This document shows positions 27,490 to 27,792 of a DNA stretch of 55,805 nucleotides, piece after piece. The DNA is taken from positions 1-55,805 of the forward strand of contig CALKFG010000010.1 in the NCBI GenBank assembly GCA_938084575.1. Reading direction: 5' to 3'. The translations under genes and the position numbers were made by a program. Position 1 is the first letter of the stretch. Each line of letters starts with the position of its first letter. The notes beneath the pieces were generated by a model. The model saw only the letters and a list, made by a program, of their open reading frames with translations, did no database searches and was not told the origin of the DNA. The stretch is from an uncultured Hyphomonadaceae bacterium (GTDB taxonomy: Bacteria > Pseudomonadota > Alphaproteobacteria > Caulobacterales > Hyphomonadaceae).

Positions 27490-27792
27490 GCGAGGCGTCT
27501 CCTTTGGAGCGTATGTTTCAGTTGAAGATTTGGCCGGCTTGGCCAAAGTGGCCGCTGGCGAGGTGTGGTTGTCCGGCGCCGCGGCGCTGGCGGTGTCGGG
27601 CTTGCAGGTCCCACAGGCGCGGGTGTCCTTCTGGCCAAGCGACCCGGCCTGGGCGTCGGCCCCGGAAAAAGTCGTATAGGGGCCATGCCATGTCTCATCG
27701 TCGCCGGCCTTGCCCGGCGTACAGTAACGACATCCCTCAGCATGGATGCGCGCGCGTTTGGTGCGAGTATTTTCGTGTACCCAGAAGCTCAT
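27490..27792 (-). CDS. In-frame N-terminal extension of atpD: zinc-ribbon-like domain plus Ala/Pro/Lys linker, 101 codons
   Basis: Between atpG and the usual atpD start, the atpD frame is open with no stop. It starts at ATG 27792, 11 bases after the atpG stop, with AAGGGGG about 6 bases upstream. Residues 1-65 hold His17, Cys21, Cys24, His36, Cys60 and Cys63: two CxxC knuckles around a WHGPYTTFSGADAQ segment. This resembles small stand-alone alphaproteobacterial proteins of the pattern WVHEN...H..C..C...W.GP...C..C that I recall as hypothetical. Residues 66-101 are an Ala/Pro/Thr/Lys-rich linker. As no stop intervenes, a ribosome starting here makes a 574-residue beta subunit. Both starts have ribosome-binding sites. 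Function is unknown. Confidence 0.6.

Follow-up and report, generated by a model that had tools for sequence, protein, structure and literature searches.

Long and short forms of a protein made from one gene through an internal ribosome site have been described for CcmM (M58 and M35; PMC8580825) and for infB and CheA (PMC11005335), going by the excerpts of these sources available to us. Extensions of F1 subunits are also on record: the Mycoplasma Type 2 F1-like ATPase has beta-like subunits with N-terminal extensions of 200-300 residues (excerpt of PMC3369863), and a mycobacterial alpha-subunit extension blocks rotation and hydrolysis, regulating the enzyme (excerpt of PMC9244403). Here we analysed atpD, the gene for the F1 beta subunit of ATP synthase, in a 55,805-nucleotide stretch of DNA from an uncultured Hyphomonadaceae bacterium (contig CALKFG010000010.1; the whole stretch is called the window hereafter). 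Our comparison of this locus with its relatives makes it quite likely that atpD is one gene with two selected starts, giving a long beta with a cysteine-bearing N-terminal head and a short, ordinary beta. Two independent signals point to the two forms, namely protein-level selection on the head and silent-site selection at the ribosome site of the internal start.

Compared with ordinary F1 beta (AtpD, TIGR01039), the window protein has the same whole-profile match and its gene the same operon place after atpG, but there is in addition a second start and, at the N-terminus, a head and linker of 101 residues in all. The forms of CcmM, infB and CheA have been shown as proteins, whereas the atpD case is known from sequence alone and concerns the catalytic F1 beta. 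A long N-terminal extension of beta is shared with the Mycoplasma enzyme, which however is a separate specialised ATPase and for which the available part of the source (PMC3369863) mentions no two-start feature. The mycobacterial extension is likewise a lineage-specific addition to an F1 subunit, but it sits on a different subunit, with no cysteine domain mentioned in the available part of its description (PMC9244403). No description of a two-start beta with a cysteine head was found in the open-licence literature, searched by title and start of abstract, which is not a claim that none is in print.

The extended atpD frame and its cysteine domain

All features of the locus lie on the minus strand. 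The gene atpG (F1 gamma; 27803..28684 in the list of open reading frames) ends with a TAA stop at 27805-27803, and after 10 intervening bases comes the first ATG of atpD (27790..27792), preceded by an AAGGGGG (27798-27804) that overlaps the atpG stop. From here the frame runs for 574 codons without a stop, through a second ATG (27487..27489) that is the ordinary start of the 473-residue beta, to the stop at 26068, the extension being 101 codons. An earlier note on this DNA had described the frame as open for 101 codons upstream of the usual start, with a ribosome-site signal at each start, and both statements held, the internal signal (AAAGGAG, 27505-27499) proving strongly conserved in relatives; it gave the first ATG as 11 bases after atpG, where we count 10 bases between stop and ATG. 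The AtpD core (26068..27489, stop included) identifies the protein as the F1 beta equivalog, with residues 108-570 covering the whole TIGR01039 profile (825.5 bits, cut-off 462.85). The gene sits behind atpG and before atpC (the latter recognised by eye), the operon place of F1 beta, and this core is the only AtpD match in the window genome (E <= 1e-180). Assignment to the Mycoplasma F1-like beta (NF045858) was rejected, as the window protein scores 496.5 bits against a cut-off of 850 and matches over the core only.

The extension is no chance feature of a single genome. In an initial search of 61 genomes it was carried by 26 besides the window's own (E < 1e-16), each time in an open frame of 580-684 codons. 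Within Hyphomonadaceae, a marine family, the domain is present in 40 of 105 genomes and in 5 of 10 genera, among them Henriciella, Ponticaulis and a few Hyphomonas, and it is fused in frame to AtpD in 39 of these 40 carriers; in the fortieth (G062) the contig ends within the frame. Carriers in culture include a Henriciella strain, Ponticaulis koreensis and Hyphomonas johnsonii. Since 26 further genomes carry open frames and the ratio of nonsynonymous to synonymous substitution rates (dN/dS) of the domain is about 0.15, the extension goes beyond chance.

The first 65 residues (27598..27792) form a small cysteine domain, recognised from alignments A1 (26 of 27 loci, L028 omitted) and A2 (the window and 37 of 38 loci, L042 omitted), from dN/dS and from AlphaFold2; a third alignment, A3, comprised 27 of 28 references (L040 omitted). 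Domain length across the 39 genomes is 65, 71 or 72 residues. All 38 rows of A2, six distant proteins included, share Cys21, Cys24, Cys60, Cys63 and His17, the cysteines giving the four invariant ligands expected of a zinc-binding domain; His36 varies. The CxxC pairs and two histidines that the earlier note had listed are thus present in the window protein as described, and as candidate metal ligands in relatives all of them stood except His36. Neither a stop or frameshift in the extension nor a loss of the cysteines, two of the counter-indications it had named, was seen among the carriers. The likeness it had drawn to small stand-alone alphaproteobacterial proteins was borne out in that such proteins exist, the domain not being confined to alphaproteobacteria. 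Its observation of an in-frame extension is therefore real, and its interpretation is partly supported.

Median dN/dS over the 39 genomes was lowest in the core (0.069), intermediate in the domain (0.152) and highest in the linker (0.437), taken from 540, 178 and 281 of 741 pairs, respectively, the remaining pairs being saturated or too alike. By this measure the domain is under protein-level purifying selection. AlphaFold2 predicted it with confidence (mean predicted local distance difference test score, pLDDT, 85.9) as a small fold in which three strands are followed by a helix and one more strand. In the full-length model, which is of no use for the AtpD core (mean pLDDT 41), the first 60 residues scored 82-89 by tens, except for 54 at residues 21-30, and the linker, predicted to be disordered, scored below 30.

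The 101 residues of the extension match no NCBIfam family, and Pfam gives only a weak match to DUF6233 (PF19746), membership of which was rejected since both the window (17.1 bits) and the best-scoring locus (L044, 23.5 bits) fall below the cut-off of 27.6. Solved structures searched by sequence held no relative of the domain (best E 1.7). Its ending resembles that of the Ada N-terminal zinc domain (RACGxCKP and RPCxRCRP), and Foldseek placed 1adn first and 1zgw fifth, the match not being significant (E 2.3, template-modelling score 0.42). With no Pfam match and an hhalign probability of 4.2 over 11 columns as well, membership of Ada_Zn_binding (PF02805) was rejected. The four cysteines, with or without His17, probably hold zinc.

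Between domain and core lies an Ala/Pro/Lys/Thr-rich linker (residues 66-101; 27490..27597), which takes 18 different lengths of 32-75 residues in the 39 genomes, all of them in frame. Such a freely varying, predicted disordered linker, and the existence of stand-alone relatives of about the same size as the head, would suit a long form that is made and then cut in the linker, yielding a beta close to normal and a separate metal-binding peptide; the fusion would then do no more than couple their amounts. We consider this unlikely: if two products were simply wanted from two genes, a stop should part the domain from the core, yet none of the 39 carriers has one, and no conserved cleavage site was noticed, none having been searched for.

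Two probable starts and their ribosome sites

The putative ribosome-site element of the internal start, GCTCCAAAGGAGACGCC (27494..27510), holds the AAAGGAG together with a small CTCC/GGAG inverted repeat, and the internal Met is present in 39 of 39 carriers. A Shine-Dalgarno (SD) match of at least 5 bases precedes this ATG in 32 of the 39, compared with 5 of 395 Met codons in the core. In those 32 genomes the motif is AAGGAG, 9 bases before the ATG, and in the other seven, all Ponticaulis, it is AAGGGG, 6 bases before it; the Ponticaulis genomes encode different residues at the site and retain AAGGGG. Ahead of the internal Met the codons of the 32 non-Ponticaulis carriers are nearly fixed in counts left uncorrected for relatedness (Ala GCT 30/31, Lys AAG 32/32, Glu GAG 32/32, Thr ACG 30/30), with a Pro codon in their midst that varies. 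In the AtpD core the same codons make up 22%, 58%, 47% and 27% of those used for their amino acids, and of 347 core windows, a control drawn from the same genomes, none was as codon-constrained. On these comparisons the internal ribosome site is held by selection on silent sites.

That only the long form is made, with AAGGAG and the internal ATG being remnants of an older gene start and now mere linker codons, could be argued from the occurrence of the motif in relatives without the extension, which suggests that it could be inherited, and from the conservation of the internal Met and the Pro-Lys-Glu-Thr residues as protein too. However, the silent sites there are fixed in a gene that varies elsewhere, the neighbouring Pro codon included, and in Ponticaulis the residues changed but the purine-rich site was retained, which makes this alternative quite improbable.

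The gap before atpD was read in 40 of the 57 family genomes that have AtpD without the domain (29 from the same branch and 11 from outgroup genera; G081 and G100 were cut by contig ends). Among the 29, CTCC-N3-GGAG precedes atpD in 28 and the last (G029) has AAGGAG; overall AAGGAG is found in 19 and GGAG in all 29, the motif being non-coding there. Neither CTCC-N3-GGAG nor AAGGAG occurs in any of the 11 outgroup genomes. Of the carriers, 31 of 39 have the inverted repeat (27499-27509 in the window), as do 28 of the 40 non-carriers. In single-sequence folding the SD within this hairpin is mostly paired (mean unpaired probability 0.15), and the repeat may act as a control on the translation of atpD genes both with and without the extension.

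Two Henriciella genomes, G007 and G008, lack the extension and still have AAGGAG ahead of atpD; in G008 a short out-of-frame stretch is left and the ribosome-site motif is intact. Between their atpG and atpD genes lie unrelated frames: in G007 (L101) one of 58 codons, which begins 10 bases after atpG, and in G008 (L102) one of 27 codons, which begins 0 bases after it. Both end just past the atpD start, that of G007 via an ATGA overlap. Two further Henriciella, G011 and G015, gave no AtpD match at the threshold used and so do not bear on this point. The idea that only the short form matters, the upstream frame being a leader that opens the atpD ribosome site and whose amino acids are irrelevant, can draw on the predicted hiding of the SD in the hairpin, on these other short frames and on long upstream open frames at some other alphaproteobacterial atpD genes, but it is very unlikely given the domain dN/dS of 0.15, the invariant cysteines, the homologous stand-alone proteins in other phyla and a junction kept in frame through 18 linker lengths, which such a leader would not need.

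The first ATG lies 0-23 bases after the atpG stop in all 39 carriers, a position that suits re-initiation after atpG. A two-start gene should have two in-frame starts with the signals at both kept in relatives; here the internal signal is kept in 32 of 39 carriers, with AAGGGG in the other seven, and the upstream one in 25. In the two-start gene that we favour, ribosomes ending atpG would re-start at the first ATG close by; their product would be a beta of 574 residues whose small head, probably zinc-binding, sits on a flexible linker. Other ribosomes would bind the AAGGAG within the linker codons and yield the usual beta of 473 residues. The computed masses of the two forms are 61.7 and 50.9 kDa. 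Both forms are probably made in cells.

History and relatives of the domain

A tree of 59 atpD cores, comprising the 39 carriers and 20 hand-chosen genomes of the 57 having AtpD without the domain, requires at least 7 changes in extension presence, 6 of them forced by well-supported branches. Since Ponticaulis, with the extension in 7 of 7 genomes, branches before the rest, the pattern is most naturally read as a single gain with later losses. The absences in G008 and G029 are clearly separate, those in G007 and G036 stand at an unresolved fork and may represent one loss or two, and for Hyphomonas (25 of the 40 non-carriers read, and 3 carriers) the tree fits several losses or one loss and a regain alike. 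In a 71-column domain tree, most inner forks of which are weak, the fused domains separate from three stand-alone relatives with support of 96/94. Two Ponticaulis genomes, G107 and G112 (L145 and L150), have heads that resemble the Henriciella type, and G030 (L153), whose core groups with theirs, has a head of the other Ponticaulis type, hinting at a possible exchange of the head alone.

At the level of the order 44 of 398 genomes matched the domain, 34 in Hyphomonadaceae and 10 in other families with frames of 91-454 codons. No AtpD was found among the 7 of these 10 that were read, the others being G228 (where the pattern found nothing in the stretch), G361 and G397. At class level 6 of 385 genomes matched. 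One is the window's own, and of the remaining five none is an AtpD fusion as judged by frame length and, in four, by reading. In four of these five the frame spans 77-171 codons; that of G037 has 454 codons and is transposase-like. A general alphaproteobacterial feature was rejected on these numbers.

Stand-alone relatives, some 70-80 residues long, are found in alphaproteobacteria, Armatimonadetes, an actinobacterium and other bacteria. In G037, from another family of the order, the domain forms the C-terminus of a protein (L179) with an IS1-transposase match at the cut-off (24.1 bits), and in L064 it lies ahead of a GIY-YIG-like stretch scoring 21.7 bits, just below the cut-off of 22.6. Transposase-like and GIY-YIG-like partners were also judged by eye in L181, L182, L184, L185 and L187, Pfam finding nothing in L181; in L184, L185 and L187, likewise from another family of the order, the domain appears by eye C-terminal on IS1-like transposases. 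These arrangements suggest a general binding module that was captured by atpD. The neighbours of one stand-alone relative, in Actinobacteria bacterium IMCC26256 (L068, 3001-3240), include a LEM-3-type GIY-YIG gene (48.4 bits) and what looks by eye like a helicase gene; the surroundings may be linked to defence or to mobile DNA.

Quite different in-frame stretches precede the atpD core in other alphaproteobacteria, namely in families f127 (L208 and L209), f95 (L211) and f125 (L204 and L205). Those of f127, from two genomes of one genus, hold no cysteine domain; both begin some 86 residues ahead of the internal Met with MSWLRRAFERLKQ, which is rich in arginine and helix-like and has a GGGGGGAG of its own. 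N-terminally extended betas may be a recurring feature.

Two further ideas were rejected. Replacement of the zeta inhibitor subunit does not fit, as PF07345 is present in 101 of 105 family genomes and, of the four without it, the two that are carriers (G061 and G111) are both incomplete assemblies. As to a phage origin, a scan of viral contigs gave 24 pattern matches and no confirmed relative, and PHROGs and PADLOC gave weak matches only (best E 0.017 and 0.036).

A possible mixed ATP synthase

Several points weigh against a two-start beta with a zinc-binding head. The upstream SD, of at least 5 bases in 25 of 39 carriers, is weaker and less constant than the internal one, and the long form could accordingly be the less abundant of the two. 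Relatedness remains in the codon counts at the internal site. The domain tree is not cleanly vertical, with the domains of the Ponticaulis genomes G107 and G112 split from those of the other five and the cores grouping together. The case for zinc rests on the cysteine pattern, since the structure search was not significant. Finally, the extension is absent from G008, G029, G007, G036 and most Hyphomonas, and is therefore dispensable.

Several lines are without the extension yet retain the short start, which favours an accessory or regulatory role of the head over a catalytic one; most likely it is a tether or a metal- or redox-responsive module on part of the ATP synthases. The N-termini of beta lie on the membrane-distal side of F1, and a long beta entering F1 would yield an enzyme with zero to three heads on that side. 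A more tentative possibility, a little short of an even chance in our judgement, is that F1 rings are mixed, with none to three betas bearing the zinc-binding head, and that the ratio of re-initiation to internal initiation tunes or places ATP synthase by metal, redox state or a binding partner.

The relatives that lack the extension but have the ribosome site are ready natural controls, which makes the two-start idea directly testable. ATP synthase beta is among the most conserved of proteins and is present in three copies per enzyme; if the two-start design is true and selected, compositionally different F1 motors would arise from one gene in a cell.
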